Assembly (NCBI GenBank): GCA_021234155.1 | Contig: JAJEKV010000017.1 | Span: 11,353,525-11,417,524, forward strand | DNA: 64,000 nt | Reading direction: 5' to 3' | DNA from: Isoetes taiwanensis | Lineage: Eukaryota > Streptophyta > Lycopodiopsida > Isoetales > Isoetaceae | Shown here: positions 10,464-50,727 of the stretch, piece after piece | How the letters are laid out: the number at the start of each line of letters is the position of its first letter | How positions within the stretch are numbered: position 1 is the stretch's first letter | Made by a program: the position numbers and the translations under genes | The notes under the pieces: generated by a model | Databases searched by the model: none | What the model saw: only the letters and a program-made list of their open reading frames with translations | What the model was told of the DNA's origin: nothing

Positions 10464-12393
10464 TGTTGCCCCCAAAGGGCAACATGCTAATTGTGTTCTA
10501 TGCATTCAAGTTAGGTTAAGTCATTTCTGAAGACTAGGTCAAAGATTGGAAGAGCTTGGTAGTCAACATTGGTGTGAAGGTCAAAGGATGCTTACCTTCT
10601 AAGTCAACAAGTGCTCAAGCCAAAAGTTCACAAGAGGTATTTTATTTGGGATCAAATGCTTAGTTAAGAATATGCTCTAGAAGAATCTGGGTTATGAAGT
10701 TTGGAAGACATCTTTTGAAGATTGGAAGTTAAGAGTTTGGAAGACCCCATGGTGTATAGTTTCTAATTTTGGCCTTTGCTTCACCCCACTACCCCCATTT
10801 TTGCACCTTTGGCTCAACATTGTTTTCATGCCCATTGTTCATTCCTTTGCCATGCTTGCTTTGCCATAATTGCCATCTTGCTCAAATTCCTTACCATTTC
10901 CTTCAATGTGCCATCATCTTGTCTATTCAAAAAACTACTTAAGCCTTTGTTTCAAAAATATCATTCCCTTTTCTTTATTATCTCCTTTGTCCCCCTAATG
11001 GTCCCTCATAATTTCTTTTGCCTTCATTCCTATTCCATCATACTCTTAGTGGTATATTCTAAGCCTTGCCAAAAGATGCCCAAAAGATTCCTTATCCTTT
11101 GCACGTGTGGAGAATTCTTCCTATGGTTGAAAGAATTGAACTATCTCTAAATATTCCTTGGGCAAATACCTCTAAACCGTTGGCCAAGATTCTTAAATAA
11201 TAAAATACAGCATATTCAAGGTATATTCTTCCGAAAATACGGAACCGTATCGCGCGAAACTCTCAAAAATACTGCTGAAGAACCCTAAAATTAGAAAACT
11301 GGCTCGAATCATGCCTTCCCGCGCTCCATTCTCTCTGAAACCACTCTATTTTTGGATTCCGGAACCTAAGCAACAAATTAAGCCTTTACCTAAAATCACT
11401 GGAATCGAAATTTGAAACTATATACAGGGGAAACACAATCACAGCATTTTTGAAGGTCCAGACGCACTCAAATCCGACATTGATCAATGCTGAGCATGAC
11501 CTGAAAGATTCTTCAAGTCCCTGAGCATTCCTCGACTGGATTTGCAAAGATCTAGTTGATATTATTTTCAAAACTTATCTTATGACTTATGATGATTATT
11601 TTCCAGTATCTGAAAGTTTGAAGTATTATTATCTATTGTTATTATGATGTATTTACCTTCATATCCCAAGTTGTCAAATCCCTCTCTGATACATTTCTTA
11701 GCAATTTTTTTACTCAAAATATTTTACAGAAAATCCCTGAGTGTTCCAAAGCACTATTGGCCTGTTTGCCATCTATCCTTAGAGCAACTGTGAGCTAAAG
11801 GCTTTGAAAATATAAAAAAAATACCACTTCTAGTTCAAGTTGGAAAAATTAGCATTCGGGTCTGATCAATGTTTTACTATATTTTGCCAAATCCAGCCAC
11901 AAAAAATGCTTCTGCAGTTTCAAATGGAAATTTGACCTCATGCCCCTCTCTCTCATCACCATCAGAACACATGTGCTTTGGAAATTCCCAAAAATACGTC
12001 CAACAACTCCAAATCTTATTTTCTGATCACTGTTTTCCATAGTTGACCTCTCTATTGACCAATTTTTGACCCCACTTTGAGATTGAATATCTTTCGAATT
12101 TATAGTCTGACTTGGTCAGAAACTTCATCACTGGATTCCTACAACTTTCTTGAGCAAGTCTGAGGTGGTTGACCCGAAAAATCAATCCCTTTCTCGCCAC
12201 CACAACTGTTTGAGTCAAGATCCCATTTCCTAGAAATGGGAAATGTATGAAATTTGAGTTTTTTGGACTTCTCTTTAGATTTACCTTGCATAGACTGATC
12301 ACCTTAAGTGATCTGGAGGTTCTAACCCCTATTTGGGTGTAAACTCAAGTTGGTTCCTTGTGGTTGACCTATAAGCCAGGTTTAGGGTCAACA
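10464..12393 (+). mobile_element. 5' LTR of A1 (1930 bp)
   Basis: Starts TGTTGCCC and ends GGGTCAACA. The first 21 bases form a hairpin (TGTTGCCC pairing with GGGCAACA). Near its 3' end it carries a second hairpin, GATCAC-CTTAA-GTGATC (12297-12313), followed at once by TGGAGGTTCTA (12314-12324), the same 11 bases that open the primer-binding site at 12397. Short open frames here are duplicated in the 3' LTR and have no recognisable product. Confidence 0.92.
12297..12324 (+). promoter_or_regulatory. U5 hairpin plus primer-site mimic in A1 5' LTR
   Basis: A six-base-pair stem with loop CTTAA at 12297-12313, then an 11-base copy of the primer-binding core. The 3' LTR has the same at 20342-20369. 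Families B (57218-57245) and E (about 25325-25347) have analogous arrangements with different stems. It could help tRNA annealing or packaging; this is inference. Confidence 0.5.
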
Positions 12394-12396
12394 TTT

Positions 12397-12415
12397 TGGA
12401 GGTTCTACCGAGATC
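12397..12415 (+). promoter_or_regulatory. Primer-binding site of A1
   Basis: TGGAGGTTCTACCGAGATC, three bases after the LTR end (spacer TTT). It starts with TGG as expected for pairing to tRNA CCA. The core suggests tRNA-Gln (inferred). Confidence 0.75.
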
Positions 12416-12434
12416 TTCCTGGATTTCAGAACTC

Positions 12435-14285
12435 ATGGCTCCAAAACAAAAATTCCCAGCAGAACAAGAACCATTAGAGGATGTTGATGTATCAGATCAT
12501 TGCAGGGAGAGACCATTGCCCTCAAGTTTTTCAACCAGTTTGCTTCAGAATCTGCCTTGTCAATTTGAACTGAATGTCCCTGTTCCCTTACCTACTTTTT
12601 ACTCCAGTATGAGTGCTAACAACTTTCTGAGAATATTTAAAGATTATTACAGGGATTATGGCTTCAAAAAAGGGTGCAAGCTCTCAGAATTTGAAAAATG
12701 CTTCAAAGAAGAGAGTGAGGCTGGTGCTTGGCTAACTTATGAAAAGTTAATGGGGACCACCTTATGGGATGAGCTTGTTAAGAAGTTCTTAGATAGGTTT
12801 GGTAAGTTGGCTGCTCCCAAAGATTTGGTTAATGAGTTGCAAAGTTTTTCTATACATGCAGGGGAGAGTGTGAATCAGTACAAAGAAAGATTTAGCACAT
12901 TCATGAGTAGGTGCCAAAGAGCTCAAGTTACAATTCCAACTCTTTTTCTGGTCACTGCTTTCATCAATGGTTTGGAAAGGAGACCAGATATCCAAGGAAG
13001 CTGCTCAAGATCCAAGCTGTTGAAGGTTTCGATTCTATATACAAAGTTTTTGCCAAAACCACTGACCTTACTCAGATGCTTTCCACCTTACCAGACAAAC
13101 ATCATGTTTCCTATCATAATCATGACCCCTTCTACCCTGATGCCACTGATGCACATTATGATCATCACCCTTCCATTCCAGTTTATGCCATACAGAAGGA
13201 AAAGAAGAAATCTAAAGAGGAAGAAGCTAACTCTCAAGTTGCAGAGGTCAAGGCAGATTTATCTAAAGTCACTGAGGCTTTGGCAGAATTAACCAAACAA
13301 TTAGTCGAGCTCAAGACTACAAGAACAGGTAAAACTTACCCTGAATGTATCCATTGCAATAGGAATTCTCATCCATCAGAAATTTGCTATTGGCAAGTGT
13401 GTCCTAAATGCAATAGAAAAGGCCACTTTAGAAAGGAATGTTCTATTTGTTCTTTTTGTAAAGAAGTTGGCCATACTGATATTAGGTGTGCTGTTAAGGA
13501 ATACTTTGCTAAGCAGGAAAAGGAAAAGAGACCAGAACCTAAACCTCCTGTGAGATTTGCTGAACCAAGTACTTCTATAAGGTTTATCCAGGCTACAGAA
13601 GTTCCCAAAGCTGAAGAAGTTGTGGTGGTGCAAACTAGAAGCATGAATGAAGCTCATGTACATACTGAATCAAGTAGACATCCCACTGCCAGGTCTTCAC
13701 CACCTATAGTGGAATCACCTGCTCAAATGATAGCTCCACCCCCACAGCAAAAATATGGTAAGAAAGATCAAGACCTTGATGAAGTTGATGTTTTGCTCAA
13801 AAACTCTAAAGTACGTGTGGATCTTTTTACCTTGCTAAAAATTGCGCCTAGCTATAGAAAAAGAGTAATGCAGCAAACTGGTGGTGAGACATTGAATGCT
13901 TGTGTGAATTTTACTGATGCCACTAACCTCGTTCTAGCACAGAATGAAGAAGACCCTGGGGCATTCACATGTTCAGCTGCTTTAGGAGGTTACACCTTCT
14001 CAAATGTGTTACTTGATGGGGGATCCCCCTTAAACATCATGCCATATCACATTATGAAGAAGTGTGGTTTCGAGGTGGACAAGAAAGCTTCTATATTATT
14101 GAGATCTTTTTATAATGCTAAGATTACTCCTATTGGTGTGGTGACTAAAGTGCCTGTTAATACAGAAGGCATAACTGTAGCTGCTAACTTTATTGTAGTG
14201 GCTTTTGAAGATATAGGGGATGAATCTGACATCTATGATCTACTTTTAGGAAGGAGATGGTTGGCTACTGTGGATGCTAGGCCAG
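12435..14285 (+). pseudogene. gag-pro: gag and protease of A1, with frame breaks
   Basis: Structural polyprotein. The start ATG at 12435 (MAPKQKF) is matched by MAPRRTN in family B at an equivalent distance from the primer site. The capsid-like part (frame of 12435) runs to about 12994, where one base is missing compared with family B (RKLLKIQ follows directly there), and reading resumes one frame over. Then come an acidic/basic linker and three tandem CCHC zinc knuckles (about 13346-13492), all of C-x2-C-x4-H-x4-C type: CIHCNRNSHPSEIC, CPKCNRKGHFRKEC and CSFCKEVGHTDIRC. The aspartic protease active site reads LLDGGSPLN (DGGS at 14015-14026), with the LLLGRRWL segment near 14242-14265. The frame is lost again at about 14280 before pol. 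Nucleic-acid binding and particle assembly are the expected roles. Confidence 0.88.
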
Positions 14286-14394
14286 TCTGGTCTCAATGGA
14301 GATGCACCATCTCCAAATGGCTCTCAAACTGCCACAATTTACAATCAAGATGGCTCCTATGGCTCCAAAGAAGAGGTAAACTTTATTAAGGGAA

Positions 14395-17300
14395 ATGTTA
14401 ATTGAAGAGCCTTCAGGATCTTACAGGATAAAAAATACAAGATCAAGAAAATATGAAATGGTTCCTCTTATTATGGAATGTGCACTTCCCAGCAGACAAG
14501 GACCATCAGGATTCTTATGGTTTGATGGAGGTATTTCTAAAAAATTAAATGTTGCATCATCTGCTGCTATTTTGAAAGACTCTTCTCACAAAATCTTAGC
14601 TAAAGTAGGAAGAATCTTCCCTCAAGTCACCTCTAATGTAGCAGAATATAAAGCTTTGATTGCAGGTCTTCTGGAAGGCAAAGCCATGGATATTGCTAAT
14701 ATCCACATTTATGGTGATTCACAATTAATCTGCAGACAAGTTTTAGGAGATTATCAAACAAAGAATGCAGATATGGAACTCTTGAAGAATCAGGCAATGG
14801 GAGTACTCTCAAGTTTTGCTTCATGGAAGATCACTCATATCCCAAGAGAAAGACTTTTTAAAGCTGATGCTTTGTGTAGGGAGACTCCCATGTCACATTT
14901 AACTGAGGGAGCTATTCCTGAAGATGATCTCGATGACAATGAAGTAAAAGCACTCTGTCCTATTTTGACCATTGATGCATCAGAGAAAAAAGATACTGAA
15001 GAGATTGTAATCACAAAAAATGGTAAGACTAGAACCCTATTTGTTGGAGATTTGATTGAATATCAAAACAAAGAGAGCATACAAATGTTTTTTGAAGAAA
15101 GGAAAGATGTATTTGCTTGGGATTATTCAGAGCTCACAGGTATCAAAACTGAGGTATGCCAATTTGAAATTAAGATCAAGGAAGGTTGTAAACATGTCTT
15201 TCAAAAATTAAGGAGAAGTAATGCTTCATTGATGGGATTAATCAAAGATGAATTGGATAAGATGCTAGATGCAGATGTTATTATTGAAATTATTAATCCA
15301 GAATGGGTATCTTGCATTGTTCCTGTGGAGAAAAAAAGTGGTGCTTTAAGAATTTGCACTGACTATCGAGATCTCAACAAAGCCACCATCAAGGATTATT
15401 ACCCTTTGCCTTTTTTAGAGGAGATCTTATATGCTGTAGCAGGTAAAGAGGTGTACTCATTTTTAGATGGATTCTCAGGATTCAATCAGATTAGCATTAA
15501 AGAAGAAGACCAGCCAAAGACTTCCTTCATCACTCCCTGGGGCACATATGCTATGAAAAGAATGCCCTTTGGTTTAATGAATGCTCCAGCTACCTTCCAA
15601 AGGGCAATGGATGTTATTTTCAAATCAATGTCTGCTGAAGAGTTCAGGGTGTACCTAGATGATCTTTGCCTAGGTTCTCATCCTACTAATCATGTGGAGT
15701 TACTTGCAAAAATTTATTCTCTATGCAGGAGTTCAGGAGTTAATCTAAATCCAAAGAAATGCATCTTTTTTGCATCAAAAGGACAACTCTTAGGACATGA
15801 AGTATCCAACCAAGGCATTCAAGTTGCCCGAGACAAGATTGAAGCCCTCAAAAAGCTAGCACCTCCCAAGAATCTAAAGCAGGTTAAGAGTTTTATTGGT
15901 ATGACAAGTTTCCTTAGGATGTATATTCCTAATTTTGCTCATATTTTGAGTCCCATTTCTAAGTTGACGAGGGTAGGCAAGTTTTCTAAGTCTGAAAGTA
16001 AGCATATACCTATCACATGGACTTCAGAATGCCAAGAGGGTTTTGACTTTCTCATTCTATCCATATGTGAAGCCACACTTTTGAAAAACCCAGATTTGAA
16101 CATGCCATTTAAAGTTTATATCACTGTTACTAAAAAGGCCATAGGATTAGCCATTTTGCAGGATAAACACACCATAGTATTTGCAAGTAAACAATGGTCT
16201 GCCCTTGAAGAAAGATATACCAGAATAGAAAAGAGTGCTGCTGCACTCATGTTCCTTATCAATAGGCAAGGACACTTGCTTCTGAAAAGTCAAGTCCAAG
16301 TCTACATGAAGCAAAATCCAATGGGTCTACTGTTTGGTAAGGCAACCAATAAGCCAAAGATCCAGAGATGGGCTTGTAAGTTGCAAAGTTATGATATTTC
16401 TGTAAAAGAGTTGCATTTGGTACGAAGTCCTAGCCTCTATTTGCCTTACATATTTTTTGACCATGAAGATGAATTGGATACTACTGACACTTCACAATAT
16501 GGGATCATCTCTCCAAGCCTCACTTCAAGCCAAAAAAGGAGACTCAAGGACAAATGCAGACAATTCAAGATGATAGACAATGTCTTGTGCAAAGTCAACC
16601 GAGATGACGATGAGTCTGTTCTAATTATCAGGGAAATGCATAAAGGTATTTGTGGGGGACATTTTGCTGGTGATACTACAACAAAAAAGATTCTCAGGTC
16701 TGGATACTATTGGCCCACTGTCTTTAAAGATTGTTATGAGATTAGAAGGACTTGCCATCAATGCCAAATCTTTAGCAAAAGAATTTTACTGCCAGCTGCC
16801 CTTAATCCTATCATATCTCCAGGGCCTTTTCAGATTTGGGGGCTAGATTATATTGGCCCCATTAATCCTTCTTCTGCAGGTCAACATCAGCATATTATTG
16901 TAGCCACAGACTATTTTACCAAGTGGGCAGAAGCCATACCTTTGAAGCAGGCTAATGCCCTCACAACTGCAAGGTTTTTACATGAATATGTTTGCTCTAG
17001 GTTTGGTATTCCTTTCCAGTTGCATTCTGACAGGGGTACACCTTTTGTTAATGAAGTTATTGCGAACCTGTTGGACATTTTGAAGGTCAAGCATACCAAA
17101 AGTTCCTCATACTATCCTCAGGGTAATGGACAAGCTGAAGCCACTAACAAGGTGCTGAAAAATATTTTGCAGAAGACAGTTGAGGTCAACAAGAGGGATT
17201 GGCATGTCAAAATAGTAGATGCACTTTGGGCTTATAGAGTCACCATCAAAACAGCTATAAATCACACACCTTTCAATTTGGTTTATGGCATAGAGGCAGT

Positions 17301-17724
17301 TTTACCAGTGGAACTCGAGCTGCCTTCTCTAAGATTAGCTCATAAATTATGCTTACCTTTTGAACATGCCTTGCAAGAAAGATTGGATGCCTTGCTGCAC
17401 CTAGATGAATATAGAATGGAAGCTGAGAATACTAATTTGTTGAAAAAGGCTAAAGATCTGACTGCATTCAAAGCTGCACATAGAATACATGGTACTTTTA
17501 GGAAGGGGGAGCTTGTCCTTAAGTGGAATAAGTCAAAAGAAGACTCAGCTGGCAAGTTTGATAATATTTGGGAAGGACCCTTTGTGGTGCTGGAATCTGC
17601 AGGTACCAATTCATATTGGCTACAAGAGGTTGCCTCGGGAATGTTGTTACCAAATCCTATCAATATCCTGCATTTGAAAAGGTATTGGGACCAGCATGCT
17701 TGCTTGTCCCTCTTTTTGCACTAG
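14395..17724 (+). CDS. pol: pol of A1: RNase H, reverse transcriptase, degenerate RNase H, integrase
   Basis: One open frame of 1109 codons. Residues about 40-163 are an RNase H with all four acidic residues (D44 in FDGG, E84 in AEYKAL, D108 in YGDSQ, D158 in KADAL), placed upstream of RT. RT spans about 305-480, with D358 and the active-site motif YLDD at 420-423. The classical RNase H at about 571-690 has lost its first Asp (VYITVTKKAIG) and the TDH Asp (VYMKQNP), keeping only E612. Integrase has the zinc finger (H749, H756, C787, C790) and a DD35E core (D818, D879, E915), ending in LKRYWD. No chromodomain. Compared with A2 it lacks 26 residues after DTTDTS and 8 residues after VNRD, just before the zinc finger. 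No upstream ATG context is required, as expression would be as a polyprotein. Confidence 0.93.
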   Translation: MLIEEPSGSYRIKNTRSRKYEMVPLIMECALPSRQGPSGFLWFDGGISKKLNVASSAAILKDSSHKILAKVGRIFPQVTSNVAEYKALIAGLLEGKAMDIANIHIYGDSQLICRQVLGDYQTKNADMELLKNQAMGVLSSFASWKITHIPRERLFKADALCRETPMSHLTEGAIPEDDLDDNEVKALCPILTIDASEKKDTEEIVITKNGKTRTLFVGDLIEYQNKESIQMFFEERKDVFAWDYSELTGIKTEVCQFEIKIKEGCKHVFQKLRRSNASLMGLIKDELDKMLDADVIIEIINPEWVSCIVPVEKKSGALRICTDYRDLNKATIKDYYPLPFLEEILYAVAGKEVYSFLDGFSGFNQISIKEEDQPKTSFITPWGTYAMKRMPFGLMNAPATFQRAMDVIFKSMSAEEFRVYLDDLCLGSHPTNHVELLAKIYSLCRSSGVNLNPKKCIFFASKGQLLGHEVSNQGIQVARDKIEALKKLAPPKNLKQVKSFIGMTSFLRMYIPNFAHILSPISKLTRVGKFSKSESKHIPITWTSECQEGFDFLILSICEATLLKNPDLNMPFKVYITVTKKAIGLAILQDKHTIVFASKQWSALEERYTRIEKSAAALMFLINRQGHLLLKSQVQVYMKQNPMGLLFGKATNKPKIQRWACKLQSYDISVKELHLVRSPSLYLPYIFFDHEDELDTTDTSQYGIISPSLTSSQKRRLKDKCRQFKMIDNVLCKVNRDDDESVLIIREMHKGICGGHFAGDTTTKKILRSGYYWPTVFKDCYEIRRTCHQCQIFSKRILLPAALNPIISPGPFQIWGLDYIGPINPSSAGQHQHIIVATDYFTKWAEAIPLKQANALTTARFLHEYVCSRFGIPFQLHSDRGTPFVNEVIANLLDILKVKHTKSSSYYPQGNGQAEATNKVLKNILQKTVEVNKRDWHVKIVDALWAYRVTIKTAINHTPFNLVYGIEAVLPVELELPSLRLAHKLCLPFEHALQERLDALLHLDEYRMEAENTNLLKKAKDLTAFKAAHRIHGTFRKGELVLKWNKSKEDSAGKFDNIWEGPFVVLESAGTNSYWLQEVASGMLLPNPINILHLKRYWDQHACLSLFLH

Positions 17725-18453
17725 ACAGTTCAAAGATCTATGGTAGGTTTAGAATAGTTAGATCTATTTGACTTTTGAGCATATTACTTTGATAAGTTAA
17801 TTTTATGTTTGTAGGTTGGGCTGACCTGAGGACAGTATGAGTGATCTCAAGAAGAAGAGTGAATACTAATGCTTTACCAAGTGCCATATGCAGGAGCATC
17901 CTTTTGTCCATCTTTATTCACCTGCCATAAGTGGTCCTGCTATCCATCTAGACTTTTTACCCCGGTTTTCATTCCCATAAAAGCACTCTACAATTCAGCT
18001 TCACCACCATAGCAGAGTTGCAAGGATTTGAGACTAACTAGTTGTGTGTTTCCATGACAGGTGCATCCTTTCTCCATTTTTATTCATCTGTCATAATAGT
18101 CCTGCTATCCATTTAAACTCCTTATTCTTGTTTTTCATTCCCAAAAGAAAGCACTCTGCAATTCAGCTTCACCATCATAGCAGAGTTGCATTTTTAAAGG
18201 ATCAAGGAGGCATACATTCTTTTGTTTTGGCGAGATCTCAATACTTGCACATTTACCTCACCCTCATACACGCCATCCCCATCACCACCCTATCATATTC
18301 ACCCTCATTCTCACCCTTTTTTCACTCATCATATTCCATTCACATCCTCCCACCACCATATTCACTTTTATTCCATTAACACTTGCACATTACACCCTCT
18401 CTCTACCATGATTCTCACTTAGGCACCTTGGTACAAAGTTGAAGACCCTCTAT
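17725..18453 (+). repeat. A1 3' leader with 167-bp-period direct repeat
   Basis: Non-coding part between pol and the 3' LTR. Units starting at 17891 and 18058 share the words GCATCCTTT, ATCTGTCATAA and AGCAGAGTTGCA in the same order. Between them and the LTR lie C- and CAC-rich sequences. A copy of the LTR-adjacent words TTTTGGCGAGA also appears near 18228, about 260 bp before the real LTR edge. A2 shows the same duplication at about 61330-61560, so it is a family trait. Confidence 0.7.
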
Positions 18454-18490
18454 GGCTGAGGGGACCAGCCATTCTTTTGTTTTGGCGAGC
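18454..18490 (+). promoter_or_regulatory. Purine-loop hairpin and LTR-adjacent tract of A1
   Basis: GGCTG (18454-18458) pairs with CAGCC (18466-18470) around AGGGGAC, the same loop as in family C with a different stem. TTTTGGCGAGC then leads directly to the 3' LTR. The loop or the GGCGAG run is the likely plus-strand primer. Confidence 0.5.
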
Positions 18491-20438
18491 TGTTGCCCCA
18501 AAGGGCAACATGCTAATTGTGTTCTATGCATTCAAGTTAGGTTAAGTCATTTTTGAAGACTAGGTCAAAGATTGGAAGAGCTTGGTAGTCAACATTGGTG
18601 TGAAGGTCAAAGGATGCTTACCTTCTAAGTCAACAAGTGCTCAAGCCAAAAGTTCACAAGAGGTATTTTATTTGGGATCAAATGCTTAGTTAAGAATATG
18701 CTCTAGAAGAATCTGGATTATGAAGTTTGGAAGACATCTTTTGAAGATTGGAAGTTAAGAGTTTGGAAGACCCCATGGTGTATAGTTTCTAATTTTGGCC
18801 TTTGCTTCACCCCACTACCCCCATTTTTGCACCTTTGACTCAACATTGTTTTCATGCCCATTGTTCATTCCTTTGCCATGCTTATTTTGCCATAATTGCC
18901 ATCTTGCTCAAATTCCTTACCATTTCCTTCAATGTGCCATCATCTTGTCTATTCAAAAAACTACTTAAGCCTTTGTTTCAAAAATATCATTCCCTTTTCT
19001 TTATTATCTCCTTTGTCCCCCTAATGGTCCCTCATAATTTTTTTTGCCTTCATTCCTATTCCATCATACTCTTAGTGGTATATTCTAAGCCTTGCCAAAA
19101 GATGCCCAAAAGATTCCTTATCCTTTGCACGTGTGGAGAATTCTTCCTATGGTTGAAAGAATTGGACTATCTCTAAATATTCCTTGGGCAAATACCTCTA
19201 AACCATTGGCCAAGGTTCTAAAATGATAAAATACAGCATATTCAAGGCATATTCTTCCGAAAATATGGAACCGTATCGCGCGAAACTCTTAAAAATACTG
19301 TTGAAGAACCCTAAAATTAGAAAACTGGCTCGAATCATGCCTTCCCGCGCTCCATTCTCTCTGAAACCACTCTATTTTTGGATTCCGGAACCTAAGCAAC
19401 AGATTAAGCCTAAATTTATTACCTAAAATCACTGGAATCGAAATTTGAAATTATATACAGGGGAAACACAATCACAGCATTTTTGAAGGCCCAGACGCAC
19501 AAAAATCCGACATTGATCAATGCTGAGCTTGACCTGAAAGATTCTTGAAGTTCCTGAGCATTCCTCGACTGGATTTGCAAAGATCTAGTTGATATTATTT
19601 TCAAAACTTATCTTATGACTTATGATGATTATTTTTCAGTATCTGAAACTTTGAAGTATCATTATCTATTGTTATTATGATGTATTTACCTTCATATCAA
19701 TATAAATTGACTGCCAAGTTGTCAAATCCCTCTCTGATACATTTCTTAGCAATTTTTTTACTCAAAATATTTTACAGAAAATCCCTGAGTGTTCCAAAGC
19801 ACTATTGGCCTGTTTGCCATCTATCCTTAGAGCAACTGTGAGCTAAAGGCTTTGAAAACATAAAAAAATACCACTTCTAGTTCAAGTTAGAAAAATTAGC
19901 ATTCGGGTCTAATCAATTTTTTACTGTATTTTGCCAAATCCAGCCACAAAAAATGCTTCTGCAGTTTCAAATGGAAATTTGACCTCATGCCCCTCTCTCT
20001 CATCGCCATCAGAACACATGTGCTTTGGAAATTCCCAAAAATACGCCCTGCAACTCCAAATCTTATTTTCTGATCACTGTTTTCCATAGTTGACCTCTAT
20101 TGGCCAATTTTTGACCCCACTTTGAGATTGAATATCTTTCGAATTTATAGTCTAACTTGGTTAGAAACTTCATCACTGGATTCCTACAACTTTCTTGAGC
20201 AAGTCTGAGGTGGTTGACCCGAAAAATCAATCCCTTTCTCGCCACCACAACTGTTTGAGTCAAGATCCCATTTCCTAGAAATGGGAAAGGTATGAAATTT
20301 GAGTTTTTTGGACTTCTCTTTAGATTTACCTTGCATAGACTGATCACCTTAAGTGATCTGGAGGTTCTAACCCCTATTTGGGTGTAAACTCAAGTTGGTT
20401 CCTTGTGGTTGAACTATAAGCCAGGTTTAGGGTCAACA
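18491..20438 (+). mobile_element. 3' LTR of A1 (1948 bp)
   Basis: Starts TGTTGCCCCAAAGGGCAACA (a hairpin) and ends GGGTCAACA, followed by the target duplication TATAT at 20439-20443. It follows the 5' LTR base for base apart from scattered substitutions and a few indels, such as extra bases near 19408 and 19700. Confidence 0.92.
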
Positions 20439-20443
20439 TATAT

Positions 20444-20890
20444 TATTGCCTCGTGCTCTTCCATCTGGAACTCCTGAGTGTTGAAGTCAATGAAGGTGGT
20501 GAGGTCAATCTGGTTGCAACTTTGGAAGGTTTTTAATGTCGTTGATAACTAGATCAAGTGCTATGCTGCAAATGAAGATTGGGAACAAGGTAATGATGGT
20601 TTGCCCTACTGGTGTTGTTGCTAGGGGTGTCTACCATTATGCCTCCATGTTTTGTATCTCTCCTTTGGCTTCTTCCTCCTCATCTAATTGTTCGTCGACT
20701 GGGACTTCAATGTGTTCGAGGGACCTTATTTGTTGTGTCTTGTTCTTCAGTCCCTCTCATCTCCTACTCCAAAAGCAGACGCTCATCTATCCAAGAGTCT
20801 AAGGGTTGAGGGTCAAATGACTGCCTACAAGTAAAGAAGATGGCTATCTGTGTTGGAATATGTAATGGAGCGCATTTTAGGGTCTACAAA
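20444..20890 (-). mobile_element. Probable decayed retroelement (right part)
   Basis: Flank of A1. Minus-strand frames include an acidic segment with VDEQLDEEEEAK. It probably belongs with 8701-10458, being the older sequence split by A1. No catalytic motif is present. Confidence 0.3.
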
Positions 20891-21534
20891 TGTAACGAGC
20901 TTGGCCCGTTAGCAGGCATGTAATTTACATTTCATTATTGATGCTTATGGAGAATACTCTAATTGATCATTACATGAGAAATACATACTATGTATGAGGA
21001 GTTTATACTAAATTCATGTGACAAAACCAAAGGGCATCAGTTTCTATGAAGGTTTCTGGATTGGGGCAGTTTTGCTGGACGAAATTTGGAGCATCATATC
21101 TCGGCAACCCGAGATCCAATTCAGGTAATTCTTACTTTGTTGGAAAGATTTTTAAGTCAGCTTTTCGGATTGAGTCTGATAAGGCTAAAATTCATTCATA
21201 TGAGGGATATATGGCAGAAAGAGTGAAGCTGTATCAGAATTGACTGCACCATTGTATCTCTTTGTGTAGCTTGCTTCTTGGAGCTAGGAGCTGGAAAGAG
21301 GGAATATTTTGAGAAGAAAACAGGTACAAGGAGTCAAAGGATTGCCATTGAAGTGGCTCTCAGGTGGGTGGTTTTCCGCTTACACTAGGAGAAGCTTGGA
21401 TTGCTTGGATCATTCTTGTTGAAAGAGAATCATGATTTAATAATTTGAATTAAGAGTATAAAGGAATCTGGGTGATCCTGAATGTGATAATGTGAGATTG
21501 AATGTCTTTTGCCACATTGGTATATAAGAAGAAA
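20891..21534 (+). mobile_element. 5' LTR of E, first part (up to 14 bp after the TATA motif)
   Basis: Matches 26376-27034. The TATA-like TATATAAG at 21521-21528 lies just before the interruption. The sequence resumes at 25158, after the Helitron. Confidence 0.88.
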
Positions 21535-22044
21535 TCTACTTATTTAAAAAGTTTTCGGAGGTGGGTGTCCTTTTTTTTCCGGCCGCCGGTAACGCCGGTA
21601 ACACGCCATTTTCCGGCCAAAAGCGTGATTTTGGCATCGGAAATATTTTTTTGGCGAAATACAACGTTTTTTTCCTCGACCGTTTTTCTCACTTTCACTG
21701 GCCGTTTTTGTTGCTCCTTATTTCTCCGAGAGGACTTGCCGGCCATATACCAATTTGAGAAAAACATTGGGATCCTGCATCGATCCATTTCAAGAAGCGC
21801 TAGCGGCATCGGAAGCCAGGTACATCGCCTCAATCTTCATTTTCCTTGATGTTTAGGAACGAATCGCTTACAGGCAGCTTAGAGCAAGGGCTTAGAGCAG
21901 GGGCTGAAAGCATATTATTATTTCCAAAAGGGGGTTTCTGATTTCTTGAGAAGCAGTGATAGACGACTGCTGCTCTTATTTGCATTTTCCTCCTCCCCAT
22001 TTCATTTTTTCTTTCCGACTTCTTTTTACCTTTTGGCTCCACCT

Positions 22045-22158
22045 ATGATTTTGGGGAGTACTAGCAGGATTCGTGTGCCCTACTCCATTCTACGGATTGT
22101 AGCATACATCGGATTCAAGGATCGTTTGATTGCAAATTGGTTGGCTCACACAGCAAAG
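22045..22158 (+). pseudogene. Exon-like fragment in Helitron
   Basis: An open frame from an ATG through ILRIVAYIGFKDRLIANWLA to a CAAAG|GTAAGA donor-like site. I do not recognise the protein. Helitrons often carry host exon pieces, which makes this a candidate capture, not a demonstrated one. Confidence 0.3.
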
Positions 22159-22707
22159 GTAAGATTAGGTTGCGGCAATAGACAAATCGACTGGATTTAG
22201 GTTTGTATGAACTGGAGCCTTTTATTTTGGAGCATAGAGTTTGGAGCTGGAGCTGTCGCAAAAGTGCAGGTTTTGAATCTTTTTTTCTTTCTCTGTTTCC
22301 CTACTTTGTCTCACGCCTCTGTTTTAACTCTTGCTTTTTTCAGGATTTCATACTTGGGAAAGAGCGCGGTTTGATTCTCAAGAGGAATCATAGACGTGGT
22401 CTGGGCATTTTCTGAGATGTGCAAGGTCCGTTGTTCTTTGTTGATATGTTTCCTGTTTTTCCGAGGGCCCCCAAATTCTCCGGCACTTCATTCTCTGGAA
22501 ATCGAAGCTGGGAGGCCATGTGCAGAAAGCCATTAGGCAGGGCCAAGATATTTACAGGTATAAATATCCTTTCTCCGAATATAGTTTCCGCTTTCCTATG
22601 ACGTGATTTCTCCTCCCACGTTAAGCGTAGGTTTGTAGTGCCTGATTTTTTTCCCTTTTGTACCCTTGGATAATGCTTAGCCTGCCATAGCCAAAGCTCG
22701 GCCTAGA

Positions 22708-22904
22708 GTGCCAGCTTGCTGCTTTGCTTCGTCCTACAAGAAAAGGGCCTTCATCCATCTGTATGTTTTGATTTTAGACTCTGTAGAAGCACCAAGTGAA
22801 GATAACTTGATTGGATTTCTGACATTGTGCGGAATTACAGCTGCAGCACTGACCAATAGGAAACACATTGGAAAATCAAGTCCGCTTTTCCTAGCTGAGT
22901 GCAG
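22708..22904 (+). pseudogene. Exon-like fragment in Helitron
   Basis: An open frame including AFIHLYVLILDSVEAPSED and TLCGITAAALTNRKHIGK, ending at GCAG|GTAAGT, a strong donor consensus at 22905. The product is unknown. It lies in the same orientation as 22045-22158 and may come from the same donor gene. Confidence 0.35.
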
Positions 22905-23611
22905 GTAAGTCATAAATTAGAACATCTTCAATTTGGAACTCGGACTTAATACTATTAGTTGCTACAACCCTTCCTGAATTACCAGATCCAAGAGTGGGTT
23001 AGGTGTGGCACCACTGGAAAGTGGGTTTTGAGAGCTCTTAACCCATACTGCCCATTCTCTGCCATAAGCTAAGAATCAAAGAGAAAAGTGAGAGAAATGA
23101 TGAATCTGGCAAAAATATGAGTGAAGAATTGGCTGATTGTGGATCTATTGGCTGCAGTAGGCTCCATCAAAATTTGGAGAAGGTTTCCCGGATTCTTTAG
23201 GCATTTTTGTAGAACTCTTACACAAATCTTCTGTATTAGCATTTTTTTAAAATGTTATACTTTTTTTTTTTTCTACATCTATGAACAACATATATGTCTG
23301 TGTCTTTTTTTGACAGGCTGCAAATTCGAAACCATTGGAGGCTGCAAATGGAGGCATTTTCTTTTCCATTTTTTCGTTTTCCAGTTCAGTGTTGTGATGA
23401 TTAAGCATCAATGCAAGGTTGCAAGTGAATGATTATCTCTTTGTCTACTGTATCAGGATGTGCTATCACTTAAGCATTCTGTAAGCATTACAGAGTAGGA
23501 ATGTTTTTGTACAGATACACATCCATATCAAGGTTCAGTGTTTTCAGAAGAAATATTTTGTATAGGTACATATAGCAGGTCTGTAATACAAGTCCCTGAT
23601 ATAGTTAACAA

Positions 23612-23869
23612 CCAATTTTCTCCGTTGCTATCATTGTCACCATGTCCACGAGGCCAGTGTTAATTGAGAATATTTTGCTAATTGGGTATAACTTGACATA
23701 TGTAGATAAAGGGGGCGATGTGTAGCACACGTTTACTAGCTATTTGACACGTAAGATCCAATTTTATCGCTTGCTATCATTATTACCATGTCCATGAGGC
23801 CAGTGTTAATTGAATATATTTTGCTAATTGGGTATAACTTGACATAATTATGTAGATAAAGCTGGCGAT
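23612..23869 (+). repeat. 146-bp-period direct repeat in Helitron
   Basis: Units 23612-23721 and 23758-23869 share CCATGTCCA-GAGGCCAGTG and GGGTATAACTTGACATA with only a few changes. The spacer contains ACGTTTACTAG (23734-23744), resembling the true 3' terminus ACGCGTTTACTAG. Confidence 0.8.
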
Positions 23870-24359
23870 AGCTTATTGAAACAAACTTTCTTGCTATTTG
23901 TTATTATCCTTTGTAAAATTGGTCTTAGTTGTAGTTCTTAATGTAGAAGGTCATCAGGAAAAACGCCATCACCTTTGAAATCTGGATATTAAAATGTCTG
24001 CACATATGTTGTGAGAGCACCAACGATGCGAACATGTGTTTCACTCTCTGTCTTTTAGATGATGTTAATTCATCTATATAAAACTCATGGAAGCTTAATT
24101 GAGATAAAATCAGGCATTTGAAAGTGTTCTGGTTGCAAGCAAGTGTACATGGAGCTCTAAATTTGGGCTCATGCCAACCTTGGCCAAGGTAATACTGCCC
24201 ATGAATTGCATCTTAGAAGAGAAGTAGAAAGCTTTAACAATGGCAAATATGTTTATATGGGTTGCCAAATAGCATCGCATCTTGGACATGAAAGAACTCA
24301 TCCATAACATCATTATTGGTACTGATGTAGGCATTCAGAAGGCATTTCACAACATACAT

Positions 24360-24489
24360 GGGAAATTATCTAAGAACAAATATGGAGAACTATTGTAAGC
24401 ATGAATTATAGAAAGGAATATTTTGGGAAATTATCTAAGAACAAATATGGAGAACTATTGTAAGCATGAATTATAGAAAGGAATATTTT
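24360..24489 (+). repeat. Exact 65-bp tandem duplication in Helitron
   Basis: 24360-24424 and 24425-24489 are identical by eye, indicating a recent duplication (or an assembly artefact). Confidence 0.9.
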
Positions 24490-25127
24490 GGTTAGTCTTG
24501 GCATATTTTAAAATGAATCATGTAATATTTCTATGGCAAACAAAATGGCAAGTGAGTTTGCTTATGCTTAATGGGACGTCAAGCTTAACTACTTAAAGAC
24601 CATTTTTTTTTTCCCGTTAAGGAACATTGAAAGTGGAATATTTTTGTAGCTTCTAGCCGAATTGTTGCCTGGTTGTTAATGACATGCATAACACCTGATC
24701 AAATCCAATGAGATCATGTTGTAGTAGACTGCGTGGCTCCAGCAAAGTTCCATATTACATAACCATCAACATTATATAATTATTGCCCCTTTATACATTA
24801 CCTCATGCAAAGAGTCCCAAGATCGCGTGCTTATAGTGGTTACCCCCTTGCAAAACATTGATTATACAGCTTATAAAACAATAATCACTACAACTATTTA
24901 TTAGAGGCATTTAATGCAATGTTGTTTAAGTTGAATGGCTTCTTTAACATTCTTTAATTATTGCACCAATCGCACCACTGCATTAGCAGCAACATTGGAG
25001 TCCATCAAGGGTACCCTCAATCCCCGAATCTATTTAAGAGTTAACTTGGATAAAACCAAACTACTTGGATAATCAAACTCGATACATTGCTATGATGCAA
25101 CCCTAACATCATACACAATTCGATCAA

Positions 25128-25157
25128 GCCCGGCAACGCCGGGCACGCGTTTACTAG
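25128..25157 (+). terminator. Helitron 3' terminal hairpin and CTAG
   Basis: Stem GCCCGGC/GCCGGGC with loop AAC, then ACGCGTTTA and CTAG. In Helitron biology this hairpin marks the stop of rolling-circle transfer. Confidence 0.88.
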
Positions 25158-25384
25158 TAAGAATTAAGCTAAGCTTATTGTAAGAAGTCTGGGAATAGTC
25201 CTTAGAATTGTAGATAGTAGGGCAGACCTTGTATATTGTAAAGGGAATCCTGATTACAACAATATAGAGATCGTTCTGCTTGGAGAAGCCAGAACTCAAT
25301 TGGAACCTTGAGATCATGTAGCTTATGGGGGCTGCATGGAGGTTCTAACAAGGGCACGAAAGGCGCCATCGTCTCCATGAGACA
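25158..25384 (+). mobile_element. 5' LTR of E, second part
   Basis: Continues from 21534 and matches 27035-27238, with about 16 extra bases near 25185. It includes TGTAGC-loop-GCTGCA followed by TGGAGGTTCTA (about 25318-25347), the same hairpin-plus-primer-core pattern as the U5 of families A and B. Confidence 0.8.
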
Positions 25385-26375
25385 ACTATGTGTAACAGTT
25401 GAGATTGATTCCAAACTATGTGTATGCCAAATTCGTCATTGATGGTCAATACACTTAGCTTATGTAACGTACATATTTAACTTTGTTTATTATATATATC
25501 AAGCTAGGCAAGTTTGGAAAGATATGAGGCATTTGGCACTTGAATATTGAGGCAGCTTATGCTTGTTAAGGCTGTAGCAGTGTCATGGAAGGATCATCAT
25601 TTCATGTTACGTGTTCTTTTTTTTGTATGATTAAGATGCCGCATATAAAGAAAAGTATTTATTGGTGAGATGTCTCTATGGGTATGCCGGAATCGTAAGA
25701 CGAGTTGGTTGCCTCTTGGAATTATTTTGAGCTGCATTTTCTTATCTAATTCAAGTAAAGCTTTCTATGCATGTTATAGATCATGGAACATAGTTGATTT
25801 TGAAGAAGCACCTTAATGGATTCCATTTAGTGAGATAAATGGCATCTGGGTAATGTTCGGAGGAGGCATAAGTAGCCAAGATTATTTATCATGAGCACGA
25901 GCTATTTACGGTCAAGTGCTTAATTGATGTTGTCAAAGACTTCAAGACATATATGATTTACTGGCATAAGTGGCTCACAATGATATGTTGAGAAGAAGAA
26001 GAAGAGCAGTTCCTTGCAGATTGGTTTCAAGCTTGTAATTTCATTTGTTGCAATGCATGTATGCTTTTCATTCAACTAAGGAATTATGGTGCTCCAATGG
26101 GGAAACGGAAGTCTAGCTGGGTTTGATTCCTTCGGATAAAGATCTTAATGTTTAGAGAAGATTGAAGCAGTATAAGCCAGCCCAGTCAACTCTTTGATTA
26201 TGTAGAAAGAAATTACTATATTTATGACAGCTAACAAGGGAAGAAAGAAAGATTATGGTGATAAGTTGGCATTATTATATAGTTGGACATGAAGGTTTGA
26301 TTCTATGATCGATTGGGTACTCCATCATTTTGCAACGACCCATGAGGACATGGGTTAAATTTTAGAAGGGGAGAA

Positions 26376-27238: not shown

Positions 27239-29444
27239 ACAAGCTAATTTAGAAGGTAGACAAAGATGTATATATACCTTTGGTGATTAGATTGAAGTAA
27301 GATGCTAAAATAACTATGATAGGGAATTGCACTGCTAAGAAACAACCATGGAGGTTATGTGCAATATGTTAATCTTTCAGTTAGATAGTAAGAGAATGTA
27401 TGCCAAAGCGGCCTAAAGAAGCTTATGGGGGCTTCTGCACTATGGCAATGGCATGAAGTATTGCTGGCCAAATAAAATGCTGTTATGTAATTAACTTATT
27501 AGTAAGAAAAACAAGCTAACATATTGAATTGCATATGAGTATTCTGTAAAATGTTCCACTCCTTATGGAGGAAGTGACTTTGGGGAAGCATGCCGGTAGA
27601 AGTATATTGTAGTCGCTAGGTGATCCTTGTACCTTATATGGATGTAAATTGTAGGGATATCATGATTGTTTGGGAATAGGACATTATGACATCCTAGAAT
27701 AAGCTTTTCTTGTGGGGACGAAAATGCTAGACCTTTTATGTGTTCTTGTATAATTTATCTAGACATGCTAAATGCTTGGATACCATAGTGATGTGTCAAG
27801 GTTGCATTATGCTAGCATGTACTTGTTGAATATTTGACATCATGTGGTAGAACATGCATTGCAAATGTGGCATTGTCTTATGTTGTTCCTGGTAAATGCA
27901 TAGGAAAAACATGTGAATTATAACTCTTGATTCTTGGATCATATGATGAAAAACATGGTTTAAACTTTGATATGTGGGGCGTATGCTAAGTTCTTGATTG
28001 ATACATGAGTGCATATTCTCCGGGGCCGGAGTCCATTTGCGGTGGCTTGGACTCGCGGTTGTTCTTGTTCTTGACATCGGGCGTTGTCACCCCAGCGAGG
28101 GTGCTTCGTCGTGCTACATGGCTTGGAAGTGGTCCTCTAGTGCTGGACGCAGGCTAGGAGGGTGTGTACACATGAGGCTTACCCCGCCCGTATTTGCTGC
28201 AGGGCCTGATCAGCCCGGGTGGCCTTCATAGAACCGGAGTAGGCACTGCATGTTTATAGATATCTCATGGTTATTTCATGGTTCTTCATGGTCTCGTGAT
28301 CATCTCTTGGTTATTATAAGGTTATGACATGTGGATTTACACCTTATTTGGATGGCCTGATGATGTTTTGATTCTTTTTATCATTATTCATGTTACGTGC
28401 TAATACTGCATTGCTGGTTTCTAGCATAGAGGGATTCTTAGGTGAGCATCTAAGTCTGACAATTATTCTTGTGATTGGTACATCGTACATGTTTCTTGTT
28501 GAGTATGCCATCATTTTCTAAATGCCTCAAATCCCCACTTAGTCTTTAAGACTAACCCCACATGTTCATGGTTTAAGCAGTTTCAGAGATAGCAGAATGT
28601 AGCAGGGCAATTGAAGGGCACAACTACGTGCAGTCTTTACTTATGAGGACTCTGTATGCCTTTAGAAAGGCCAAAACATTTCTGGAGCTTATGGATATTA
28701 AACTGCATATCATCTTGTATATGCCACAAGAGTGCTATACAATTATGTTTCAAATATGTATGTAAATCTAACTGTGGATTTGAAGACAAAGATTCAATTC
28801 TTTACCAAGATTTCTTTAGTAGAATTACATTATTCAACTCATGGATAACAATTTATCATTGACTCATGCAAGGTTAAATGGGATTTTGGATTACCTGGAG
28901 GGTTAACCCGACAAGGCCGTTACAACAAATTGTTTCGACCGACGCCAATATCTGATTCTATTATAGGACAAGCCTACCTTCGAGATGAGTTGTTTCATGT
29001 GCTTGATAGTCGTGATCGAATTGATGACTCGCACGTGCATTTATCACTTTTACCCTGAGTAAGATATTATCTGTTGTAGGAGAAGCGAAGATATCACGAG
29101 AGCATCCAAACAACATACAACATTAGGTTGGTGATATACGTCATGTGGAGATGCATATTTAGAGTTCTATCACGAACTAAAATACGCTAACAAACTAGGA
29201 CAAAATTTTGTATTTTGCATTTCCTACTATTCTTTGTTGATGTACTTAAGTACTTCGAATTGTGACATTTTAAGCATAAGTTTTGAATTTATCTTTCCAA
29301 ATTTTGAGCTTAAGTTTTGTTTTGTGTTTTGAACATTGTTTTCTTTATTGAAATCCAGAAACTCACAGTTGTATTAATGACTGTCATTAGACATTTCAAT
29401 AACAAAAATAATTATAAAAGCAAATAATATCCATTCCTCCTGGA
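27239..29444. other. Stretch without a recognisable gene
   Basis: AT-rich sequence apart from a GC-rich island at about 28015-28235. CATGGTTATT-like words repeat near 28265-28325. The island resembles LTR or leader sequence more than coding sequence; its open frame (27998-28231) has no motif. Nothing else to report. Confidence 0.4.
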
Positions 29445-31740
29445 CACTCATCCTCGAACCTTTTGGCGCAGAGTGCTTCGAAGTCCAGCCCAGCCTACAG
29501 GGGACATCACACCCGGGCAGTGGGAACAATACTTGCAGCAGCTCTATGACCCACCAGGGACGCGTACGCCCATACCCCCACAGGATGGCCCCCCATTGGT
29601 TCTCGTGGAGGAGGATGTTGAGGAGGGCCTGCAACGGCTGGCTAATGGGAAGGCAGCTGACCTCGATGGTATGCAGGCCGAGTTACTCAAATGGGCAGGG
29701 CAGCCGCTTGTGCCGGTCCTCACTACCCTGTTCAACAGAGCATTGCAGGAAGGTCTCCCCCAACAATGGACCACAAGCAAGGTTGTTCCCATTCACAAGG
29801 CGGGCGACCCACCGTCCTACCAATTCTGCGGACGATCATGGTCGGGCTCGAAGATTTGCCAAACCGCTGGCTGGCGTTCTCGGCGGCAGTTGACCCGGCC
29901 AGGCGAGGCGCCAGTCGCGAGCCCTCACACGGCGGAGCTTTAGACCCAGCCACTCAACGATTGACTATATCTTTACACCGCGGGCGATTGAAGACAAAAT
30001 TTAATCATCGGCAGGGACTTGTATTGCCGCTTTGTGGACTTCGCTGGGCTTTTGATCTGGTTCCCGGGGAAAAGCCGTAGGCTAGATCTGCGTCAACCCC
30101 AGGGGCTCCACGCTGCGCGTAATGCCATATACAAAGTTGTATGAGAGTTGTTTTGGCGGGATGCAAACGGCAGGGCCAAGCATTCACCAAGTAGTATCGG
30201 GTCCCGCCTGGTTGCCCCCCTCGCCAACACTTTTTGGCCTCTACATTGATCGGTTAGAGCCCCGGCTTCGAAAGCATGGGGGATGGCATACGACTTTTGC
30301 ACTGTGTCATCCGCCACCATCTATCTGCGGGGCGATGTTGGCTGGCCGCCCACACCCCGAAGCTATCACGGTCTCACACGGATGCCCTAGACACATTTTG
30401 TCGCTACTGAGACATGCGCTGGCGTCAATCCGCCAAGACCGGGTGGTTCTCATATCCTCTTCACGCCACCCCATGCCTCCCCGCACTCACATATCGGGGG
30501 CGGCTCGTGGACGCCACGCCCACCTACAAAGTACCTAGGGGTGGAGTTCCCCTCCTCGCCTGGCTGGAGGCTATCTATCCGGCTATGGTGACGGCCAGTA
30601 GGAAAGCGCTTTATGCCATGCGAACAACGGATCCTGTGCGACTCTATGATTGGGGCCATCGGTCACATCTTAGGGGCGGTCGAGCCCGTCCCGCCTGTGC
30701 AGACGGGTCGAGGTTTGGGGCCCTGGCCGCCTCTTTTGGCGACTGGAATGACTTGGAGCAGTGCGAAGGCATTTTGGCACGGGCACTTGGGTGAAACCTT
30801 CAGTCCCCTATCGTGATTCGGTCTGCAGAAATCGATTCTTGAACCGGCAGCCCCTTGATAGACACATCGCCTATTTTCGTGAAAGTGGTTACTATGGGTG
30901 ATGCTCGCTCCCCGCGACCGCTTTACACCGTGGGCAATGGGTCCGCAAATGCTTAGGGCCCGTTGGAGGGGTAAGAGAGATCGGGTTCGCCAGATGGAAC
31001 GTCAAGGAGAGCACGATGCGCAGTGGACACAATACGTCGATCGCGGATGCCGGGAGTACCTAGATGCTTGTTTCCTTGGCAAGCTCGGGACCCCTACGCT
31101 TCTAGAGCGTGTCAAAACGCCCATTACAAGGAGCACATCAACCCCAGTGTTAGCCTGTGGCCCACAAAATTACTACGTTCCCGGCTCCTACCGCCTCAAA
31201 AGCTGCAAGACTCATTGCCTCCATTCGCATTGTGCCCACCATCTTCGTGATCGAGATTCGGTGGATTGGGGAGCCCCGCCAGACGCGCTCTCTGGTCGGG
31301 CTTGACGGGTGCCATTGAGGATGAGTCTCACACTTTCCGAGAGTTGCCCGTTGCTCGGGCCAGATCCGGGCGACATACCCCCTTAGTACGGCCGGACTTG
31401 CCCTTACATTTGCCGATGAACACACCGCCAAGATGCGTGCCCGGGTCGTTACATTCAGAGGTACCGACTGCGAGGGGTCACCTTTGCCCCCTCCCGGTCG
31501 CCCACGATTAGGGCACTACTGGTCGCGGTGAATGATCAGATATATTTGGGTGTTTCTGCATTTTATATGTTACGACAATTTGTCAGCAGGCTGATTGCTG
31601 CCACGGTTTTTCCCTCGAAAACCCTTCGGGGCGGGGGTTTTTTAATCCGGGCAGTAATCCGCTTGCTGCGTTTTTGTATTGGGTCCCATAGACCGATTGG
31701 TCTCCGTGGACGATAAAAATACCTTCCTTCCTTCCTTCCA
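29445..31740 (+). mobile_element. Decayed LINE (non-LTR retrotransposon), 5'-truncated
   Basis: A GC-rich block unlike its surroundings. The first frame (29473-29830) gives the typical lead-in to a LINE reverse transcriptase: ITPGQWEQYLQQLYDPP, LANGKAADLDGMQAELLKW, then WTTSKVVPIHKAGDP. After a frame change come RTIMVGL, WAFDLVPG and, near 30215, PTLFGLYIDRLEP. The thumb-like KYLGVEFPSSPGW is at about 30529-30570 in another frame. The YADD catalytic box is not recoverable, and at least five frame changes occur. The endonuclease half is absent. The 3' end has a hairpin (AAAACCC/GGGTTTT, about 31618-31643) and a (CTTC)n tail at 31722-31739. Sense strand is plus. Confidence 0.85.
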
Positions 31741-32423: not shown

Positions 32424-33195
32424 CTAATCATCAGCAGGTACTTCGGCCCTCTCCTTTTCTTTTGTTGTAGAATTATCAACTGCCTTCATTGTTTCAGAAG
32501 CTTTTGATTCTTTAGCACCTGAGAGCTCTTCTTGAAATTCGTTTGCAGCCTGTATAAAATATGTAGTAAAATGCTGAGAATAAAGAGCAGATACGAACCT
32601 ACTATTTTGAGAGCTCATCAAAATCGTTCACATCTATAATGATGAACAAATCTACCAGCCCAGCTAAGGCAAATAGGAGAGCCACTATGGCTGGAGGTAT
32701 TTATCATACATCAAAACTACCAGTAGACAGACGGAAATAAGATGACAAGGCCAGGGAGCATAATTAATAACTTGTGAATAATTTGCGCCTACCTGCTGAA
32801 AGCTCTTGACTGTCTTGCCAAGGCTTTTCCCAATTTCTGGAAGTTTCTTGGGTCCAAAGACAAGTGCAGCAACTCCAGCAATGACAACAAGTTCAGGGAC
32901 TCCAAGCCCAAATAGACCAACAACAGTGAGATGTGTCCTCCTTTTAATCGTTCTATTTGGTGGATGCGAAAATCTGATGTTCGCATCCCCAAACAAGTTG
33001 CTAGAATTGTAATAGAATCCGCCTACGCCATAAGACCTAAATTTAGGCACTACTTGATCCGAAGCATAAAGGACCGGAAGCAATATGAAATATACCTGGA
33101 AGCCGACGAGAGCTGCGTGACAACGGTGTTAAGCTAGCGGATAAGAAAGGGCGGTGTGACAACGATGCTGAATGGCAGTGCATGATCGTCGCCAT
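32424..33195 (-). CDS. TATA: Sec-independent protein translocase subunit TatA/Tha4, chloroplast
   Basis: Thylakoid-membrane subunit of the twin-arginine (delta-pH) pathway; it oligomerises with Hcf106 and TatC to pass folded proteins into the lumen. Proposed exons on the minus strand: 33195-33096, 33022-32793 and 32549-32424, giving 151 residues. Exon 3 joins in phase after KSFQQ through a clear GT-AG intron (CAG|GTAGGC ... ATACAG|GCTGC). The first intron (73 bp, CAG|GTATAT ... CGTAG|GCGG) is my choice because it restores the frame; it is less certain. N-terminus: MATIMHCHSASLS..., rich in Ser and Arg, a typical transit peptide. Mature part: single membrane helix LFGLGVPELVVIAGVAALVF with the conserved Glu, the FGP hinge, then the amphipathic helix KKLPEIGKSLGKTVKSFQQ and an acidic tail ending VPADD. 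All key residues are intact. Strong match to plant Tha4 from memory. Confidence 0.88.
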
Positions 33196-40228: not shown

Positions 40229-41805
40229 TGTGACGTTCCACATATTTATACGCATATTTAAGTATAAATACGTGACACGTCACTATGAATAATTAATGGC
40301 ACATTAATTATTCATAAGCTAAGGTTAGCTATGTTAATAATTAAATTATAAAGGTGGAAACCTAACCAAAACCCTAATTCGAATTTAGGGCTTATCCTAA
40401 TATTAAAAAGGTCTAAAATACCAAATTAGCTAATATTAACCAATCTAGAGCATGCCACCTGGCCCAAATCGATTGGGCAAGGTAGGGTTTCCATTTTGGA
40501 CACCCAAATTAGGGCTTTTGTGCCCCAATTCGAATTGGGAGCAATTGGGGATGGAGGAGGAGGAGTAGCAGCCAGGCGCCCTTCAGTTAGTCGAGATGGA
40601 GCAGCCCAAGACCGATTTGACGGTTAGTCAGTAGGTTAGTTTGTTGATTTATAGCATAGCGCCTCTCTGTGGTGTTCTCTCTCTGTTTTCTCTGTGGTTT
40701 ACCTGTTAGACTAACCCTTGATTGATATGGTGAGTATTCTTATCTCTAGTCTTTGTACGTGCTTTGGTTGATGGTTTAGTAGTTCTTTGCTTAGTTAGCA
40801 CTCCGGAGATGGGGGATTACGGGGGGTAGAGACCTCTGAGACCATGTATTGTAGTATGCTCCTAGATAGAGCCATGTATTATTCCCATTAGATGCGGCAT
40901 GTGTACAAGAGACCACCGAGTCGTGGATGCTATGGAGTGACTTAGCACCAAACAAGGGACACAGTGGTGAAGTGGGGGTGGGGTCTTGCACGAACATAAA
41001 AGGCTCCTGAGACTCCTACAGTGGGCTAGGCCTGATAGCCGGTCACGTAGAGGGTCGGGTATGGGTCTGACACTCCCTGGGTGTAGAGGTGTGATCCGTA
41101 TGGAGCATCTTGCACTTTGAGTAGAATTAGGGTGAGTAAGTCGGGTACGGATGCGGGGGTCGCTGATGCGGCACGTATTCTCTAGCTCACCCATGGAACC
41201 ACTGTGATCCTGGAAGGGGACGCTTCCCCGACCTGCCTCATCGGATGGGGCTTCATGAACCCTGTAGTAGGCTCGAAGGGTGATACCTTGAGTCTGCGTG
41301 TCCGGAAGGCTATAGTGATGCCATAGCATGATTGGACTCATCTGCAAAGTGTGCACAGGAGGGGCGGATGGAGTGGACAACCCTAGCCGATGTTCTATGC
41401 CAGCCAACGCCATGTCAAGATTCGGTCTGCTGATCTCTTGAGGCATAGCCGTCAGTCGATCCTCACTGGAGTCTGAGCCGGGGTAGAACCATGGGTTTGG
41501 GGTGTTTTCCTTAGGATTAGATGCATATTCTTTGCCGTTAGTACTTGGATGGATGTGCCACCCTTCGTGGTGGTTATTTATATATGATTTATGTTGTGTG
41601 CTAACATGTATTCGCGCTTCCGTGACATAGGAGCCCCATTGAAGGCGTGGGCCGAATGACCCCTCTGTGTCCTTCACTCGAGCATCTTGCCATAGATGGC
41701 CCGAGTTAGACGGAGGGCCCTGCTCTTGGCGAGTTGGTCGCCATGGGAGGGGAAAGTCCCCGTATGTATACGTCCGAGGGTCGTATATGTTCAGGGAGCG
41801 TCACA
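40229..41805 (+). mobile_element. 5' LTR of D (1577 bp)
   Basis: Starts TGTGACGTTCC and ends GAGCGTCACA, so the termini are inverted (TGTGACG/CGTCACA). It has the 55-bp block with ATTAAT words missing from the other LTR, and on the minus strand a 271-codon open frame (40862-41677). Confidence 0.92.
40862..41677 (-). other. 271-codon antisense open frame inside LTR of D
   Basis: Begins MKDTEGSFGPRLQWGSY and continues without a stop across half the LTR. The 3' LTR has the same frame shortened to 216 codons (50594-49944) by an indel near 50040. I recognise no domain. The segment DMALAGIEHRLGLSTPSAPP is protein-like but not diagnostic. The region is GC-richer than its surroundings, which lengthens chance frames. 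It may be a non-coding accident, an antisense accessory protein, or a captured gene piece. Most likely chance, but worth a database search. Confidence 0.3.
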
Positions 41806-41806
41806 G

Positions 41807-41819
41807 TGGTATCAGAGCC
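41807..41819 (+). promoter_or_regulatory. Primer-binding site of D (tRNA-iMet type)
   Basis: TGGTATCAGAGCC, one base after the LTR end. This is the widespread plant primer site complementary to initiator methionine tRNA. Confidence 0.92.
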
Positions 41820-50722: not shown

Positions 50723-50727
50723 CTGGT

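Follow-up and report, generated by a model that had tools for sequence, protein, structure and literature searches.

We identified a 3,623-bp insert in the 5' LTR of a putative LTR retrotransposon as, with a probability of about 0.95, a non-autonomous Helitron of the canonical kind that inserts between A and T (A^T, where ^ marks a junction here and below). The insert lies in the window, the whole 64-kb stretch of Isoetes taiwanensis DNA that was analysed. The Helitron reading, which an earlier note had proposed and our analysis supported, is based on a 5' TC, a 3' CTAG, a GC hairpin, A^T flanks and an empty site, all at ends that the sister LTR defines independently. The coordinates of the features are collected in Table 1.

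Table 1. Features of the insert and of the LTR pair that it interrupts (window positions)
Feature	Position	Strand	Basis
Insert, very probably a non-autonomous Helitron (TC...CTAG, between A and T)	21535..25157 (3,623 bp)	+	LTR alignment and empty site
Interrupted 5' LTR, first part	20889..21534	+	LTR comparison
Interrupted 5' LTR, second part	25158..25386	+	LTR comparison
3' LTR, carrying the empty site GAAA^TAAGAA	26374..27240	+	LTR comparison
5' terminus, starting TCTACTTATTTAAAAAG	21535..21564	+	Matches itself alone in the window (≤3 mismatches)
CpG-rich first 316 bp, which may be a captured promoter/5' exon	21535..21850	+	CpG observed/expected
Two diverged repeat copies (23606-23719 and 23752-23869), 86% identical	23606..23869	+	Repeat comparison
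Perfect 65-bp tandem duplication	24359..24488	+	Repeat comparison
3' hairpin, perfect 7-bp GC stem and 3-nt loop	25128..25144	+	Hairpin scan and DNA folding
3' terminal CTAG	25154..25157	+	Sequence

Insertion site and empty sister site

The 3' LTR was compared with the 5' LTR region by BLASTN; one part of the alignment ended at 21535, and further parts began at 25158. When the two 5' flanks were joined, they matched the 3' LTR as one continuous LTR of ~870 bp. The junctions of the insert read AAGAAGAAA^TCTAC...TACTAG^TAAGAAT, and the sister site in the 3' LTR is uninterrupted (AAGAAGAAATAAGAACTAAG, in the stretch starting at 27021). These results confirmed the coordinates previously given for a TC...CTAG element splitting the 5' LTR between A and T, and the intact GAAA^TAAGAA that had been read in the 3' LTR was present. 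No target duplication was detected beyond a single shared T. This T opens both the insert and the 3' flank. Two placements of the insert are therefore equally valid, and we chose 21535-25157 by the Helitron convention (TC...CTAG between A and T). The claim of base-precise ends thus stands in that the ends are fixed by the sister LTR, and needs to be relaxed by a one-base slide of the T. The 40 bp around the target contained 75% A+T, compared with 60% in the window. The use of paralogous empty sites to define where rolling-circle elements begin and end is established (PMC4067079), and vacant sites in other maize lines have been used likewise (PMC2267711).

Without the insert, the interrupted element measures ~2.7 kb, and its LTR pair encloses 987 bp. 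The element appears to be non-autonomous too, because this 987-bp interior contains no ORF of 120 aa. A purine run (AGAAGGGGAGAA) lies directly before the 3' LTR, no standard primer binding site was recognised by eye in the element, and its likely target duplication is imperfect (ACAAA/ACAAG). The term LTR retrotransposon is accordingly used as a reading of the repeat pair, and the empty-site argument holds regardless of the class of the element, because only the repeat pair is needed.

Terminal structure and comparison with known systems

The earlier note had placed a perfect GC hairpin nine bases before CTAG, and we found it there: the sequence GCCCGGC-AAC-GCCGGGC (17 nt) is followed by nine bases (ACGCGTTTA) and CTAG, and it ends 13 bases before the end of the element. 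Folded as single-stranded DNA, the last 36 bases gave -9.6 kcal/mol (z -3.2), and 1 of 200 shuffles was as good. A scan of both strands of the window detected two GC-rich hairpins with a stem of at least 6 bp near CTRRT, and only that of the insert has 7. In shuffled 64-kb windows (n = 30, both strands), the mean numbers were 0.83 for stems of at least 6 bp and 0.27 for stems of at least 7 bp. Since such hairpins near CTRRT are not rare in shuffles, the hairpin by itself proves little; it carries weight because the sister LTR independently fixes the end at which it is placed.

The window contains 409 CTRRT sites (both strands), and the frequency per position is 0.31% for CTAG and 6.1% for TC; a rough, after-the-fact estimate from the window frequencies puts the joint chance of Helitron-like ends on the order of 1e-7. 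This figure bears on whether the insert could be filler DNA from double-strand break repair in the 5' LTR, with ends that resemble those of a Helitron by chance. Filler DNA would agree with the lack of a target duplication, of a recognised protein in the insert and of a second copy in the window; however, TC, CTAG, A/T flanks and a perfect GC hairpin would all have to coincide at independently fixed ends, and we consider this origin very improbable. A DNA transposon of another kind (a terminal-inverted-repeat or TA-target element) would account for the T at both junctions, but at most one base is duplicated, no transposase domain was found, and the terminal stretches compared contain no terminal inverted repeat, their longest exact inverted match being 4 bp. 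Such an element is just as hard to credit as filler DNA.

The features of the insert agree with published Helitron definitions, which specify TC, CTRR or CTAG, flanking A and T and, near the 3' terminus, a GC palindrome of 15-20 bp (PMC2575219, PMC2267711, PMC4683698). The insert has the canonical 5' TC and 3' CTRR (TCTAC...CTAG), an A-T insertion point with no target duplication (empty sister site, 1-bp T slide), and a GC hairpin that falls, at 17 nt, within the 15-20 nt range. The distance of 13 between hairpin and end is within the 10-15 of PMC2267711 and one beyond the 10-12 of PMC4683698. The insert is a clean but ordinary example.

Among known systems, the plant non-autonomous Helitrons of maize and rice likewise have TC/CTAG ends, A^T insertion and a GC palindrome near the 3' end (PMC2267711, PMC4683698), and the rice element Mothra has a 16 bp palindrome 13 bp from its end as well as internal repeats, as in the insert (PMC2267711, PMC4683698). 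Unlike the maize and rice Helitrons as described in these excerpts, the insert has its own terminal sequence, with a 5' end that fits only 11 of 17 positions of the 5' search consensus of maize (PMC2267711), and no captured gene fragment was recognised in it. The bat element Helraiser/Helibat1 shares the TC/CTAG ends and the AT target, and its 19-bp palindrome lies 11 nt from the end (PMC4778049); it encodes a RepHel transposase, whereas no such domain was found in the insert. Helentrons, HINE and DINE-1 are similar in being of the rolling-circle type, with no target modification and with ends checked by paralogous empty sites (PMC4067079), but they prefer T-rich or TT targets, whereas the insert has A^T flanks and TC/CTAG ends. 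Helitrons are also mentioned in the literature on ferns, gymnosperms and lycophytes, including a conifer transposon database (PMC6301336).

By analogy with Helitron work, a RepHel enzyme encoded elsewhere in the genome would have cut the donor at the 5' TC, one strand would have been moved up to the stop signal given by the 3' hairpin and CTAG, and this strand would have been joined between A and T of the LTR with no target duplication. The anatomy of the insert fits the Helraiser model: in Helraiser experiments, deletion of the 3' hairpin resulted in less transposition and more read-through, insertions were mostly into AT, and an AT-rich preference was reported (PMC4778049). Speaking against a general role of the hairpin as terminator, markedly strong 3' hairpins were present in only 9 of 35 maize Helitrons, with little evidence reported for their role (PMC2575219).

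No RepHel partner was found in the window, where a Pfam search covered all 29 ORFs of at least 120 aa (nine with a threshold of E 0.001 and 20 with one of 0.01); the matches comprised retroelement domains, one TatA family and one C2H2 zinc finger that scored under its cut-off. The 30-bp 5' end and the 29-bp 3' end gave no second copy in the 64-kb window (≤3 mismatches), which is too little DNA for a refutation. In the viral collection, neither the 20-base hairpin stretch of the 3' end nor the 27-base 5' end had an exact match. The first 20 bases of the 3' end matched five loci in the bacterial and archaeal collection, and we took these as chance GC palindromes, since none of the five carries the full 30 bases exactly in the sequence compared.

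Interior of the insert and its surroundings

The six frames of the insert contained no Pfam domain, a Rep/helicase gene included, at E up to 1, nor did Pfam yield a match at this threshold for the 10 ORFs that were scanned out of the 34 listed. Rfam yielded nothing at the gathering score across the window, insert included, and NCBIfam nothing for the three pieces queried. Searches against solved structures with the six frames gave matches in three of them (best E 0.24). The longest stop-to-stop stretch fully within the insert is 105 aa (21883-22200). We called the insert non-autonomous because of this short stretch and because no Pfam domain and no Rfam match were found.

The first 316 bp of the insert showed a CpG observed/expected ratio of 1.39, compared with 0.48 in the window, 0.33 in the adjoining part of the LTR, and between 0.15 and 0.60 in the five slices that come next within the insert. 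As a guess, these 316 bp could come from a host gene whose 5' end was captured, and the interior may more generally stem from captured host DNA; no source gene for the CpG-rich part was recognised by Pfam, NCBIfam or solved-structure searches. Using a splice consensus, we counted three donor-like and two acceptor-like sites on the + strand of the insert and none and one on the - strand, compared with shuffle means of 0.7 and 0.4 per strand (200 shuffles). These signals are at most a hint, because other 3.6-kb slices of the window reach up to five donors or three acceptors on one strand. We consider it unlikely that the Helitron carries a captured, still CpG-rich promoter and spliced host 5' exons and drives its own transcript from inside the LTR, which would make it a gene-capturing Helitron of a gymnosperm or clubmoss.

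An exon-like ORF piece (22681-22908, + strand) ends at CAG^GTAAGT. Three query versions of this piece matched a flagellar outer-arm dynein light chain (E 0.086, 0.36 and 0.12), and the match was judged not significant because the whole frame containing the piece gave nothing at E up to 10.

Several other features were observed in the window. A Ty3-like element occupies 10464-20439, with repeats at 10464-12394 and 18491-20439 (97% alike) and ORFs at 12375-17724, and an inverted copy related to it lies at 59125-63999. In the pol ORF of the Ty3-like element (14380-17724), an RNase H-like domain (Pfam RVT_3) precedes the reverse transcriptase. A further RNase H in this upstream position is reported for three clubmosses and all gymnosperms studied, and only the other RNase H/reverse transcriptase arrangement for ferns and early angiosperms (PMC10508981). 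The sequence thus probably comes from a land plant, and if the Ty3-like element is of the reported type, its domain order would point to a gymnosperm or a clubmoss as host. The ORF at 32685-33128 (- strand) matched the TatA/Hcf106 family (E 2.9e-16) and appears to be a plastid Tha4/TatA gene, complete or fragmentary. Two direct repeats were also present, one at 1-1370 and 1567-2934 (97% identical, about 200 bp apart) and one of about 1.47 kb at 40344-41810 and 49261-50727 (98% identical, starts 8.9 kb apart), and the latter may represent the LTRs of a young element. A cluster of overlapping + strand ORFs (29381-31305) resembled, by eye, a decayed LINE-type reverse transcriptase, and had no Pfam match.

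Relative age and use of the insert

The two LTRs of an element are copies of each other at insertion. Since the sister LTR holds the empty site, the Helitron is younger than the element that it interrupts, as the earlier note had concluded. The LTR pair is identical at 822 of 848 ungapped columns, with 23 transitions and 3 transversions (K2P 0.0315), and its alignment contains 51 gap columns, 5 of which are overhang at the end. Other indels also separate the two LTRs, which would be compatible with an insert once present in both and then lost from the 3' LTR, but such a loss would require a base-exact deletion at the Helitron ends and an LTR of ~4.5 kb, whereas a single gain in one LTR would be simpler, so that we give this history almost no credence. 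Substitution rates per site per year are 1.3e-8 in rice and 2.2e-9 in conifers. With these rates, which may not be those of the host, the upper limit for the age of the Helitron is about 1.2 or 7 million years, respectively.

The insert changes no general idea about Helitrons. It provides a Helitron whose limits are known to the base, whose ends have a built-in control and whose age has an upper bound, and for these reasons it is a good seed for annotating the Helitron family in the host.
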